From: Humibacter sp. RRB41
Lineage (GTDB): Bacteria; Actinomycetota; Actinomycetes; Actinomycetales; Microbacteriaceae
Assembly (NCBI RefSeq): GCF_022761015.1
Contig: NZ_JAKWJQ010000002.1
Span: forward strand, 186,001-250,000
Length of the DNA stretch: 64,000 nt
Direction of reading: 5' to 3'
In this document: positions 2,808-5,563 of the stretch, piece after piece
Position numbering within the stretch: the stretch's first letter is position 1
How the letters are laid out: each line of letters opens with the position of its first letter
Notes under the pieces: generated by a model
The model's database searches: none
Told to the model about the DNA's origin: nothing
The model's input: only the letters and a program-made list of their open reading frames with translations
Position numbers and translations under genes: made by a program

Positions 2808-3152
2808 TCAGAGGACCTGCCGCACCTCGACCTTGCGGTTGCAGGCCTTCGAACCTTCTGCCGCCAATTTCAGGGCCGCGTCGTGATCGGCGGCTTCGAT
2901 GATCCAGAATCCCGCGACGAACTCCGTGGACTCCACGTAGGGCCCGTCGGTGAACTCACCGGCGTTGTCCCTATTGTCGATGACCGTCGCTGCGTCGGGG
3001 GCGCCCAGTCCGCCTGCGAAAACCCAGTTTCCGTCGGCGATGAGCCTTTCGTTGTAGACGTCGATCGCGGCCATCTCAGCGGCCGTCGCGGATTCCGACC
3101 TTCCGGCCGCTACGGCTTGTCCGTTGTCGATCACGCACACCAGAAACTGCAT
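2808..3152 (-). CDS. YCII/DGPF-domain protein
   Basis: This 114-residue protein covers the length of a YCII domain. It carries the DGPF-type signature FTDGPYVESTEFVAGFWII (residues 67-85) and a closing segment KVEVRQVL. YCII domains form small ferredoxin-like dimers related to muconolactone isomerase; in actinobacteria they are often encoded beside ECF sigma factors, but none is present here. The ATG at 3152 follows a GGAGATGA ribosome-binding site. The catalytic role is unknown. It is convergent with the thioesterase gene. Confidence 0.8.
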   Translation of the reverse strand: MQFLVCVIDNGQAVAAGRSESATAAEMAAIDVYNERLIADGNWVFAGGLGAPDAATVIDNRDNAGEFTDGPYVESTEFVAGFWIIEAADHDAALKLAAEGSKACNRKVEVRQVL

Positions 3153-3300: not shown

Positions 3301-3933
3301 CTACTTGGAATCGGTGACGACGACGATCCGCCTGATGAAGGTGTCTTCCACGGCGGAGCGGAGGAGGAAGTCGGCGACGCTCGAGCGCGAGGTCGAGGGG
3401 AGGATCGGCAGTTTCGTGACGTCATCCAGGGCGACCGCGGAGTAGCGGGTGCTGTCCCGGTCATTCAGTGCACCAGGGTACTCGAGGGTCCACTTCAGAT
3501 CGCTGGCGCGCAAGAGCACTTCCGATGCGGCCTTGTCTGCGTATTTCTTACGCAGAGCGGTACGGAAGATCAGTCCAGCAAGGAACGAGGCCTTTGCCAG
3601 CGAGTCTCCGACACCGAATGCGGACACCATGACGAACCGGTCGACGCCGGAGGTCTTCGCGGATGCGACGACGGCGCGGACCATATCGGTGATCAGCGTG
3701 GGGGTTTCGCGGATGTTCTTGGCACCGAGCGCGCTGATGACCGCATCATGCCCGCTGGCTGCCGTCGCGATCGTGGCGGGGTCCGTGACATCTCCGCTGA
3801 CGATGCGAGCGCGCGGGTCGACGTCGGCATCGGCCTTTCGAACGAGAGCGGTGACCTCGTGTCCCTGGTCGAGTGCCTTTTTCACGAGGGGGATGCCGGT
3901 ACGGCCGGTCGCTCCGAGGACAAGAAACTTCAC
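3301..3933 (-). CDS. NmrA-like NAD(P)-binding oxidoreductase
   Basis: The 210-residue protein opens with the Rossmann signature VLGATGRTG (residues 4-12). It continues with GDVTDPATIATAASGHDAVISALG and RFVMVSAFGVGD, typical of atypical short-chain reductases of the NAD(P)H-binding/NmrA group. I chose the GTG at 3933 because AGAAGG lies about nine bases upstream and the glycine-rich loop then falls at the usual position; an upstream in-frame ATG at 4005 is less likely. Its promoter at 4011-4040 contains a palindromic operator in the spacer. Control by the upstream MarR gene is therefore likely, suggesting a stress- or xenobiotic-inducible reductase. Confidence 0.82.
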   Translation of the reverse strand: MKFLVLGATGRTGIPLVKKALDQGHEVTALVRKADADVDPRARIVSGDVTDPATIATAASGHDAVISALGAKNIRETPTLITDMVRAVVASAKTSGVDRFVMVSAFGVGDSLAKASFLAGLIFRTALRKKYADKAASEVLLRASDLKWTLEYPGALNDRDSTRYSAVALDDVTKLPILPSTSRSSVADFLLRSAVEDTFIRRIVVVTDSK

Positions 3934-4010
3934 GATAGGTTGCCTTCTTTTGAAGGGCGGACGGTGTCGATGCAGCCGTCCACCGTTGGAAATCGTCAGG
4001 ATCATTGACG

Positions 4011-4040
4011 ATAATAGTCAGAGAATCTGACTATTGTCAA
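4011..4040 (-). promoter_or_regulatory. Promoter with embedded palindromic operator (MarR-type)
   Basis: Read on the minus strand, TTGACA (4035-4040) and TATTAT (4011-4016) are separated by 18 bases. A perfect inverted repeat lies across this promoter: arms AATAGTCAGA (4013-4022) and TCTGACTATT (4026-4035) with a three-base centre. A protein bound here would block the promoter of the oxidoreductase gene starting at 3933. The half-site GTCAG/CTGAC recurs at the second MarR locus (5121-5164). Confidence 0.8.
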
Positions 4041-4086
4041 GACGAGTCGAAATCCCTCGAGGTCCGTCCGGCTCGGTGCGGCCGGT

Positions 4087-4530
4087 TCACCGTCCGTAGG
4101 TGTCGGTGATCTCGCGGAGCTGGTCCAGGATCTCTTGCAACAACGTGAAGTTGCGGGTGCCCAGGTAGTCCTTCCATTCCGAGAGGATCTGGTCGAGAGT
4201 CGCCTTCGCCACCTTGACTGCCCGCTGGCCACGGTTCTCGATCACGATCAGCCTGGCGCGGCCGTCCGTGGGGTCAGGAACTCGGCGGACATAGCCGAGG
4301 TGTTCCAGTTGGTCGACCAGCACGCCTGCGCTCTGCTTGCTCATTTGCGCCTGGTCCGCGAGGTCCGTGAGGCGAGATCCGTCCGCGGCGACACGTTGAA
4401 AGACCCTGCACTGGGCGAGGGTCCAATCATCGAACCCGGCGTCCTGGAGAGCCCGGAAGATCCGGTCCTCGGTGTATCGATACGGGATGAACAACGACAC
4501 CCCTAGATCCATCCGCTGCTCGTCGCCCAT
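4087..4530 (-). CDS. MarR family transcriptional regulator (locus 1)
   Basis: This 147-residue winged-helix regulator has the MarR arrangement. A dimerisation helix is at the N-terminus. The DNA-reading segment around residues 50-90 contains LTDLADQAQMSKQSAGVLVDQLE and the wing VRRVPDPTDGRARLIVI, with the family hallmark DPTDGRA. ATG 4530 is preferred over an in-frame GTG at 4566 because GGAG lies just upstream. It sits immediately upstream of, and in the same direction as, the oxidoreductase gene, whose promoter carries a matching palindrome. That makes it the likely repressor; a TATAAT -10 for this gene is visible at 4628-4633 on the minus strand. Confidence 0.9.
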   Translation of the reverse strand: MGDEQRMDLGVSLFIPYRYTEDRIFRALQDAGFDDWTLAQCRVFQRVAADGSRLTDLADQAQMSKQSAGVLVDQLEHLGYVRRVPDPTDGRARLIVIENRGQRAVKVAKATLDQILSEWKDYLGTRNFTLLQEILDQLREITDTYGR

Positions 4531-4683
4531 GACGCTGACTGCTCCAATCGCCCGTTCTGATCCCACGAGGTGCGTCTCGTGTCGACGCAGAGCTTCTGCT
4601 GAACAAGGTTGGTAGTAAAGATACCTGATTATATGGACGGGCTGGAGAGTCGACGCCCATGGGGAGATGATCCGAACGAGATC

Positions 4684-5121
4684 TCAGTCTCTGAGGGAAC
4701 GGATCATGCTCTGCAGAATTGCGAACGCACCCGACTGCTCGGCCTGGGTCATGCCGCTCAGCATCCGGATCTCGACGGACCGGACTGCAACTGTCGCTTT
4801 CGCGAGGCTCCGGCGACCGCGTGACGTGAGCCGTGCGGGAAGGACCTTCCCGACGGATGCCTGCGCCGGCCTGGTCACGTACCCGTCTCGTTCCAAGGTC
4901 TGAAGCAGCACGTTCATCGACTGTCTTGTCACGAACGTGCCTCGCGCCAGCTCGGAGTTGGACAGGCCAGGGCGCTGTGCGAGCAGCTCGAGGCAGGAGT
5001 AGTGCGTCACGGTCATCCCCAGCGGCCGCAGTACCGCGTCCATGGCGACGTGAAGGGCGCTCGACGCCTCCTTCAGCAGATAGCCCAGTGAGGTCTCGAG
5101 GTGGACTCCGTCTTGACTCAT
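4684..5121 (-). CDS. MarR family transcriptional regulator (locus 2)
   Basis: The 145-residue protein is a second MarR-type winged-helix regulator. The recognition region reads LSNSELARGTFVTRQSMNVLLQTLERDGYV, followed by a wing with RPAQASVGKVLPARLTSRG. The start at ATG 5121 is inside the first of two palindromic operators, which fits autoregulation; the frame is open further upstream but runs through the operators. It is divergent from the VOC gene at 5195, whose promoter has the palindrome in its spacer. The inducing ligand cannot be read from the sequence. Confidence 0.9.
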   Translation of the reverse strand: MSQDGVHLETSLGYLLKEASSALHVAMDAVLRPLGMTVTHYSCLELLAQRPGLSNSELARGTFVTRQSMNVLLQTLERDGYVTRPAQASVGKVLPARLTSRGRRSLAKATVAVRSVEIRMLSGMTQAEQSGAFAILQSMIRSLRD

Positions 5122-5164
5122 GTCAGTATTCTGACATAGATTGATTGTTGTCAGATAACTGACA
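5113..5164 (+). promoter_or_regulatory. VOC gene promoter with two palindromic operators
   Basis: On the plus strand TTGACT (5113-5118) and TAGATT (5137-5142) are 18 bases apart. The spacer is filled by the palindrome TGTCAG-TATT-CTGACA (5121-5136). A second copy, TGTCAG-ATAA-CTGACA (5149-5164), covers the expected transcription start. Centre-to-centre distance is 28 bases. The sites also cover the start of the divergent marR gene, so both genes could be controlled together. Confidence 0.78.
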
Positions 5165-5194
5165 CATCGATAGACGACTCGAAGGAACTTCACA

Positions 5195-5563
5195 ATGCCC
5201 GCCACCGGCCCCGACTTCATCTCCTTGCAGGTTCGCGATCTGGATGCCTCGCAGGCGTTCTACGAGCAGTACCTCGGCCTCGTCCGCTCTCAGGCCGGCC
5301 CTCCACATGCTGTCGTCTTCGAGACGACGCCGATCGCATTCGCTCTGCGCGACATCGTTCCTGGCACGGATCTCGCGTCCGTCGCCCAGCCCGGCATCGG
5401 TGCCGCGATCTGGCTCCATGCCACCGACGTGCAAGCCATACACGACGCTCTCGTCGCCGACGGCCGCACGATCGTTGCGGCCCCGATCGACGGCCCGTTC
5501 GGTCGCACGTTCACCTTCGCCGATCCCGACGGCTACCAGGTCACGCTCCACGACCGCGCCTAA
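5195..5563 (+). CDS. VOC superfamily (glyoxalase/bleomycin-resistance-like) protein
   Basis: The 122-residue protein has the paired beta-alpha-beta-beta-beta modules of the vicinal oxygen chelate fold. The first runs from ISLQVRDLDASQAFYEQYLGL (residues 9-29). The second ends with FADPDGYQVTLHD (residues 108-120), where the family metal-binding acidic residue usually lies. GAAGGAA sits eight bases before ATG 5195. It is divergent from a MarR regulator and apparently repressed by it, a pairing seen for glyoxalases and dioxygenases that respond to electrophiles or quinones. Enzyme versus binding protein cannot be decided. Confidence 0.85.
   Translation: MPATGPDFISLQVRDLDASQAFYEQYLGLVRSQAGPPHAVVFETTPIAFALRDIVPGTDLASVAQPGIGAAIWLHATDVQAIHDALVADGRTIVAAPIDGPFGRTFTFADPDGYQVTLHDRA

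Follow-up and report, generated by a model that had tools for sequence, protein, structure and literature searches.

Two neighbouring MarR-type repressor modules with distinct predicted GTCA operators in an actinobacterial genome

Examination of a 64-kb stretch of DNA (hereafter, the window), taken from contig 7 of a 3.89-Mb genome, revealed two MarR-type regulator genes with palindromic sites at the promoters around them. The locus very probably holds two independent MarR repressor modules side by side, each with its own operators, and each predicted to act through steric repression and small-molecule release. Comparison with relatives strongly supports the regulator encoded at 4087–4530 (MarR1) as the owner of TAGTCA-N7-TGACTA, and that encoded at 4684–5121 (MarR2) as the owner of tandem TGTCAG-N4-CTGACA sites. 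Two features tell the site types apart, namely the distance between the GTCA arms (7 bases for MarR1, 6 for MarR2) and the base preceding GTCA (A for MarR1, T for MarR2). We establish below that the sites are present, conserved and linked to the regulators.

Layout of the locus and its candidate operators

The features of the locus are listed in Table 1. On the minus strand, the order of transcription is MarR2, MarR1 and then an NmrA-like gene; the VOC gene lies on the opposite (plus) strand and diverges from MarR2. A YCII-domain gene (2808–3152) lies directly after the NmrA-like gene on the same strand. Both regulators score above the curated cut-offs for MarR_2 (38.8 bits for MarR1 and 44.1 for MarR2, cut-off 27) and for MarR (31.2 and 34.6 bits, cut-off 24.6). 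Their membership of the family is also reflected in a 16–20 bp palindrome at the regulator's own or a neighbouring promoter, found in 52/52 MarR1 loci and 91/91 distinct MarR2 loci. The NmrA-like protein has an NAD(P)-binding Rossmann domain (NAD_binding_10, 146.6 bits), and its best solved matches are flavin and biliverdin-IX-beta reductases (E 3.7e-16). The VOC protein carries a glyoxalase/bleomycin-resistance domain (Glyoxalase, 43.7 bits against a cut-off of 20.6).

Table 1. Genes, predicted promoters and predicted operators of the two modules (window coordinates)
Feature	Position	Strand	Basis or remark
NmrA-like / NAD_binding_10 oxidoreductase gene, GTG start	3301..3933	-	Predicted MarR1 target; Pfam NAD_binding_10 E 9.9e-43, NmrA E 3.2e-12
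MarR1 operator O2, TCGTCA-N7-TGACGA	3993..4011	-	22 bp from O1; over expected NmrA transcription start; matrix 19.9, second in window
Predicted NmrA promoter, TTGACA-18-TATTAT	4011..4040	-	Sequence; MarR1 site inside spacer
MarR1 operator O1, TAGTCA-N7-TGACTA (site 1 of the earlier note)	4015..4033	-	Sole perfect match in the 3.89-Mb genome; matrix 22.9, top in window
MarR1 gene	4087..4530	-	ATG at 4530, upstream GTG at 4566 possible; Pfam MarR_2 E 1e-9
MarR1 autoregulatory operator, TAATCA-N7-TTACTA	4613..4631	-	Upstream of MarR1; matrix 19.0, third in window
MarR2 gene	4684..5121	-	Pfam MarR_2 E 2.3e-11; start codon overlaps its own operator
Predicted VOC promoter, TTGACT-18-TAGATT	5113..5142	+	-35 within MarR2 codons 2-3
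MarR2 proximal operator, TGTCAG-N4-CTGACA (site 2 of the earlier note)	5121..5136	.	At most one mismatch in 91/91 distinct loci
Possible -10 element CAGAAT of a leaderless MarR2 transcript	5128..5133	-	Suggested by the invariant T at -7
MarR2 distal operator, TGTCAG-N4-CTGACA, perfect	5149..5164	.	28 bp from the proximal site; over expected VOC transcription start
VOC (glyoxalase-fold) gene	5195..5563	+	Predicted MarR2 target; Pfam Glyoxalase E 4.3e-11

The two promoter regions read TTGACAATAGTCAGATTCTCTGACTATTAT (4011–4040, minus strand) and TTGACTCATGTCAGTATTCTGACATAGATT (5113–5142, plus strand). An earlier note on this DNA had described both, and the sequence bears out its description: the hexamers and 18-bp spacers are exact at each locus, and each spacer contains GTCAG...CTGAC arms, with a gap of five bases at the first and four at the second. 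We likewise read both as predicted MarR operators inside promoter spacers, upstream of the NmrA-type gene and the VOC gene respectively, with gaps that differ by one base. The distance of about 600 bp that the note gave between the MarR genes holds from start to start (5121 to 4530), but the space between the genes is only ~150 bp. Three sites were found beyond its two (3993–4011, 4613–4631 and 5149–5164, the last of which lies within the range it covered), giving three MarR1-type sites of 19 bp and two MarR2-type sites of 16 bp (18 bp with flanks).

To gauge how rare these palindromes are, the 1.4 kb from 3901 to 5300 were simulated 20,000 times under a first-order Markov model. GTCAG-N3..6-CTGAC was seen at least once in 1.5% of simulations and at least twice in 0.015%, while the actual count is three. 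Across the whole genome, there are 25 occurrences of this pattern, compared to 10 for the reversed control. There is a single perfect TAGTCA-N7-TGACTA in the genome, site 1, and perfect TGTCAG-N4-CTGACA is found at three places, namely 5121–5136, 5149–5164 and a paralogous MarR2/VOC pair on contig C10. With up to two mismatches, neither pattern was more frequent in the genome than its reversed control (28 vs 50 places for TAGTCA-N7-TGACTA, 50 vs 66 for TGTCAG-N4-CTGACA), and weak matches elsewhere therefore carry little weight alone.

Association of the sites with their regulators in relatives

MarR1 is found at 82% identity or more in 5 of 299 genomes from the window's family (six copies, the window's own genome included), and at 81–90% identity in 46 loci of named genomes, including Streptomyces, Frankia, Nocardia, Amycolatopsis and mycobacteria. 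The set used here comprises 52 loci, after removal of L071 (45% identity) and L187–L189 (31–44%). Elsewhere in the counts, L089 was left out as a duplicate of L037. All 52 contain TAGTCA-N7-TGACTA within two mismatches, and 43 perfect sites were observed. At gaps of 2–6 and 8–12, the same 52 loci gave zero perfect sites and at most one single-mismatch site per gap. It is because every MarR1 locus carries the N7 site, perfect only at that gap, that we assign the site to MarR1. After deduplication, 100 MarR1-type sites remained in 48 loci, split equally between positions upstream of MarR1 (50) and positions before the next gene downstream (50). Tandem pairs are separated by 22 bp (13 pairs) or 21 bp (3 pairs), and the base before GTCA is A in 33 of the 36 good target sites.

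Target promoters of MarR1 have TTGACA and TANNNT flanking the site in 28/38 cases, of which 17 have a 17-bp spacer and 11 an 18-bp spacer, while the remaining 10 have no clear hexamers. The 18-bp spacer, which the earlier note had presented as a design common to both loci, is thus the rarer of the two lengths for MarR1 targets, and we dropped it as a general rule. Of the 52 rows, 31 have an NmrA gene near MarR1: in 26 it lies downstream in the same orientation (a few at 1–3 kb), and in 5 it is divergent. These five (L150, L158, L160, L167 and L176), unlike the window in their gene order, are all Mycobacterium or Mycolicibacterium records. In several of the MarR1 loci that lack NmrA, the gene adjoining the site encodes another NAD(P)-binding oxidoreductase-like protein. 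The N7 site accompanies MarR1 when the target gene changes or is divergent.

Two places elsewhere in the genome resemble the MarR1 sites. A DUF2269 membrane-protein gene (G000:C14:125409-125501; L190 2276-3001), unlinked to MarR1 here, is preceded by two MarR1-type sites, one a single-mismatch copy of the pattern and the other a weaker copy 74 bp away. Given these sites, and since relatives of this gene adjoin MarR1 in several other loci, we predict that it is a third, distant target of MarR1. The other is a MarR1-like site with one mismatch (G000:C1:198112-198130; L191) where an alpha/beta-hydrolase-like gene begins; this gene and another MarR gene are divergently arranged.

Relatives of MarR2 are far more widespread in the family, with 114 matches in 112/299 genomes. 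The counts that follow refer to 91 distinct family loci, 23 of the 114 matches having been left out, including most of those below 55% identity. In each of the 91, a VOC gene stands divergently beside MarR2. The proximal site always ends on a base that also belongs to the start codon of MarR2, which is ATG in 90 loci and GTG in 1, and the distal site is present in 91/91 with at most two mismatches. Proximal and distal sites are most often 28 bp (64 loci) or 27 bp (14) apart, within an overall range of 25–31 bp. There was no perfect match at gaps other than 4 in these 91 loci, and the base before GTCA is T in all 91 proximal sites. In the VOC promoter, at least five of the six -35 bases occur together with TANNNT in 70 loci, while the other 21 miss at least one of these features; the 18-bp spacer is conserved in VOC promoters.

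A wider search of the class returned MarR2 matches in 52/394 genomes (54 match rows). We examined 28 of these loci, and found the N4 site in 27 and a divergent VOC gene in 26. No site was seen in the portion inspected around the partial match L219, and L220 and L221 had no VOC match. One perfect TGTCAG-N5-CTGACA was found somewhere among the 28. The genome of the window itself has a second MarR2/VOC pair (G000:C10:21721-22146; L024 5704-6586), whose MarR2 is 73% identical and whose tandem operators, one perfect and one with a single mismatch, lie in the same places. The two paralogous MarR2-type repressors probably read each other's sites, and cross-talk between them is likelier than cross-talk between MarR1 and MarR2.

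There is no space for a ribosome-binding site of the usual kind, as the MarR2 start codon overlaps the operator. At position -7 relative to this codon, all 91 loci have T, even though this base falls within the free centre of the operator, which suggests that MarR2 has a leaderless transcript with its -10 element inside the proximal site.

Could the palindromes be something other than operators, namely chance repeats, RNA hairpins or terminators? They are inverted repeats that RNA could fold, and site 1 comes immediately past the MarR1 stop codon. Yet they are rare in simulation, keep their spacing with a variable centre across distant genera, are duplicated at 21–22 or 25–31 bp, and stand upstream of genes too rather than solely at their ends, so that this explanation is barely credible. 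Nor do we think that the NmrA site is read by a different regulator of the genome. The genome has 51 MarR-domain matches overall, and regulators commonly act far from their own genes, but the N7 site goes with MarR1 relatives in 52/52 loci from many genera, and precedes MarR1 as well, which makes a reader other than MarR1 very improbable.

Discrimination between the two site types

Matrices were built from the relatives (100 MarR1 sites and 183 MarR2 sites), each at one fixed spacing and with the window's own sites included. Over the 64-kb window, the MarR1 matrix scored highest at 4015 (22.9), 3993 (19.9) and 4613 (19.0), with the next place at 5.8. The MarR2 matrix scored highest at 5120 (30.1) and 5148 (20.8), with the next at -1.3. 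Within the window, either matrix scored negative when applied to the sites assigned to the other regulator. When the MarR1 matrix was applied to all MarR2 intergenic regions, the best scores centred on a median of -6.0 and rose no higher than 4.8; its own sites had a median of 22.1 and a lowest value of 4.0, so that the weakest MarR1 sites overlap the top cross score. Because the spacing is fixed and the window's sites are included, these scores reflect evolutionary retention rather than the binding range of the proteins, and a tolerance of one base would stay hidden.

The two modules are also found apart. MarR1 and NmrA occur at high identity in the same 5/299 family genomes, two of which have no MarR2 match, while MarR2 is present without MarR1 in more than 100 family genomes, including three of the window's genus. 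In the two other genomes with both modules, these are not neighbours. When the window's first 10 kb was compared over short stretches of DNA with loci of the three same-genus genomes, similarity extended over MarR2–VOC only. The adjacency of MarR1 and MarR2 seems to be a chance event in this lineage. The idea of one MarR governing both genes was discarded, as the modules are inherited independently and the spacing is fixed per lineage.

These observations bear on the claim of the earlier note that the two MarR proteins may read near-identical sites, with cross-talk or discrimination by spacing. Under the cross-talk reading, both proteins would recognise GTCA half-sites and each would bind both operators in the cell, coupling NmrA and VOC expression. 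There are likenesses that would allow this: GTCA/TGAC, usually then G, is common to both arm types, the predicted recognition helices have QS at the same position (KQSA vs RQSM), which may account for the common GTCA core, and there is weak similarity between the proteins (29% over 92 aligned residues). Against it, within each lineage there is hardly any variation in spacing or in the base preceding GTCA, and that base differs between the two lineages; the cross scores in the window are strongly negative, and each module persists without the other in other genomes. We consider cross-talk between MarR1 and MarR2 unlikely, since the matrices from relatives fully separate the window's sites, and the comparison does not support describing the sites as near-identical.

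Building on two separate modules, a more detailed picture can be put forward, though we hold it tentatively and would give it somewhat less than even chances. Two distant MarR lineages may have converged on, or kept, the GTCA half-site, and may be orthogonal through one base pair of spacing and one flanking base. At the same time, the MarR2 proximal operator would serve as the spacer of the VOC promoter, contribute to the MarR2 start codon and supply the -10 region for leaderless transcription of MarR2, such that one dimer would block two face-to-face promoters.

Proposed mechanism and comparison with known MarR systems

In the proposed mechanism, as predicted from the positions of the sites, MarR1 dimers would bind O1 in the spacer of the NmrA promoter, O2 over the NmrA start and the site before MarR1. 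By analogy with the MarR family, this would turn off both the oxidoreductase gene and the MarR1 gene. MarR2 dimers would bind both TGTCAG-N4-CTGACA sites between MarR2 and VOC, the proximal lying in the -35/-10 spacer of VOC and across the MarR2 start codon and the distal over the VOC start, and both divergent genes would be switched off. With one dimer in the spacer and another over the start assisting it, RNA polymerase should be kept out. Each repressor would be freed from DNA by a small molecule, probably an aromatic or quinone-like one. Binding, repression, occlusion of the polymerase, ligand release and the nature of the inducers are all modelled here on other MarR proteins.

Rv0560c of Mycobacterium tuberculosis is a methyltransferase gene. 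Its MarR repressor, Rv2887 (structures PDB 5hsm, 5hso, 5x7z and 5x80), is the closest solved relative of MarR2, with a phmmer E of 7.3e-27 over MarR2 residues 9–131. The available portion of the Rv2887 study (PMC5526998) describes recognition by alpha-4, two dimers per promoter, and salicylate and p-aminosalicylate as ligands that weaken DNA binding; the footprint includes CGTCAG, and its authors favour indirect readout. Rv2887 and MarR2 share sequence similarity over most of the protein, but the published footprint, as far as that portion gives it, has no TGTCAG-N4-CTGACA palindrome, and the target is Rv0560c rather than VOC. We therefore do not treat MarR2 as an Rv2887 ortholog, as the similarity is there while the same operator and target gene are not. 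Having a relative whose DNA binding is weakened by salicylate makes an aromatic inducer for MarR2 plausible at most (PMC5526998).

CrtR of Corynebacterium glutamicum is, like the regulators here, an actinobacterial MarR with a motif over the -35/-10 and a gene divergent from its target, and it is reported in the accessible text to be autoregulated and to have a leaderless transcript (PMC5401885). What sets it apart there is a TTAA-type motif, a carotenoid operon as target and isoprenoid pyrophosphates as effectors. MhqR of Staphylococcus aureus and Bacillus subtilis represses quinone reductase and dioxygenase genes and has an 18-bp palindrome, making it a functional parallel for MarR1–NmrA and MarR2–VOC (PMC12893000, excerpt). 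The operator given in that excerpt, TATCTCGAA-ATCGAAATA, is unrelated to those described here. Both operators of MarR1 and MarR2 are GTCA-based and lack the TCTCGAA-type palindrome of MhqR-type quinone repressors.

Typical MarR operators are palindromes of 16–20 bp according to the sections available of a recent review (PMC10458429), and those sections together with the CrtR text indicate that such palindromes over promoter elements are the standard MarR design (PMC10458429, PMC5401885). The operators here (19 bp, and 16 bp or 18 bp with flanks) fit this size, and nothing of substance sets them apart from typical MarR operators. The sites are thus of an ordinary design, and by analogy MarR1 and MarR2 would be two further cases of known steric MarR repression.

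In the open-licence literature, we found no study of either operator or of either regulator. The present work gives operator assignments for two actinobacterial MarR regulators, of which we found none published, that are based on comparison and firm on ownership. In several families the MarR2 type is linked to a VOC gene, and the MarR1 type is linked to oxidoreductase genes of the NmrA/SDR type in Streptomyces, Nocardia, mycobacteria and other groups. The tandem sites could be used as orthogonal repressor parts, and the MarR1/MarR2 pair offers a natural test of how MarR dimers discriminate GTCA sites by their spacing.
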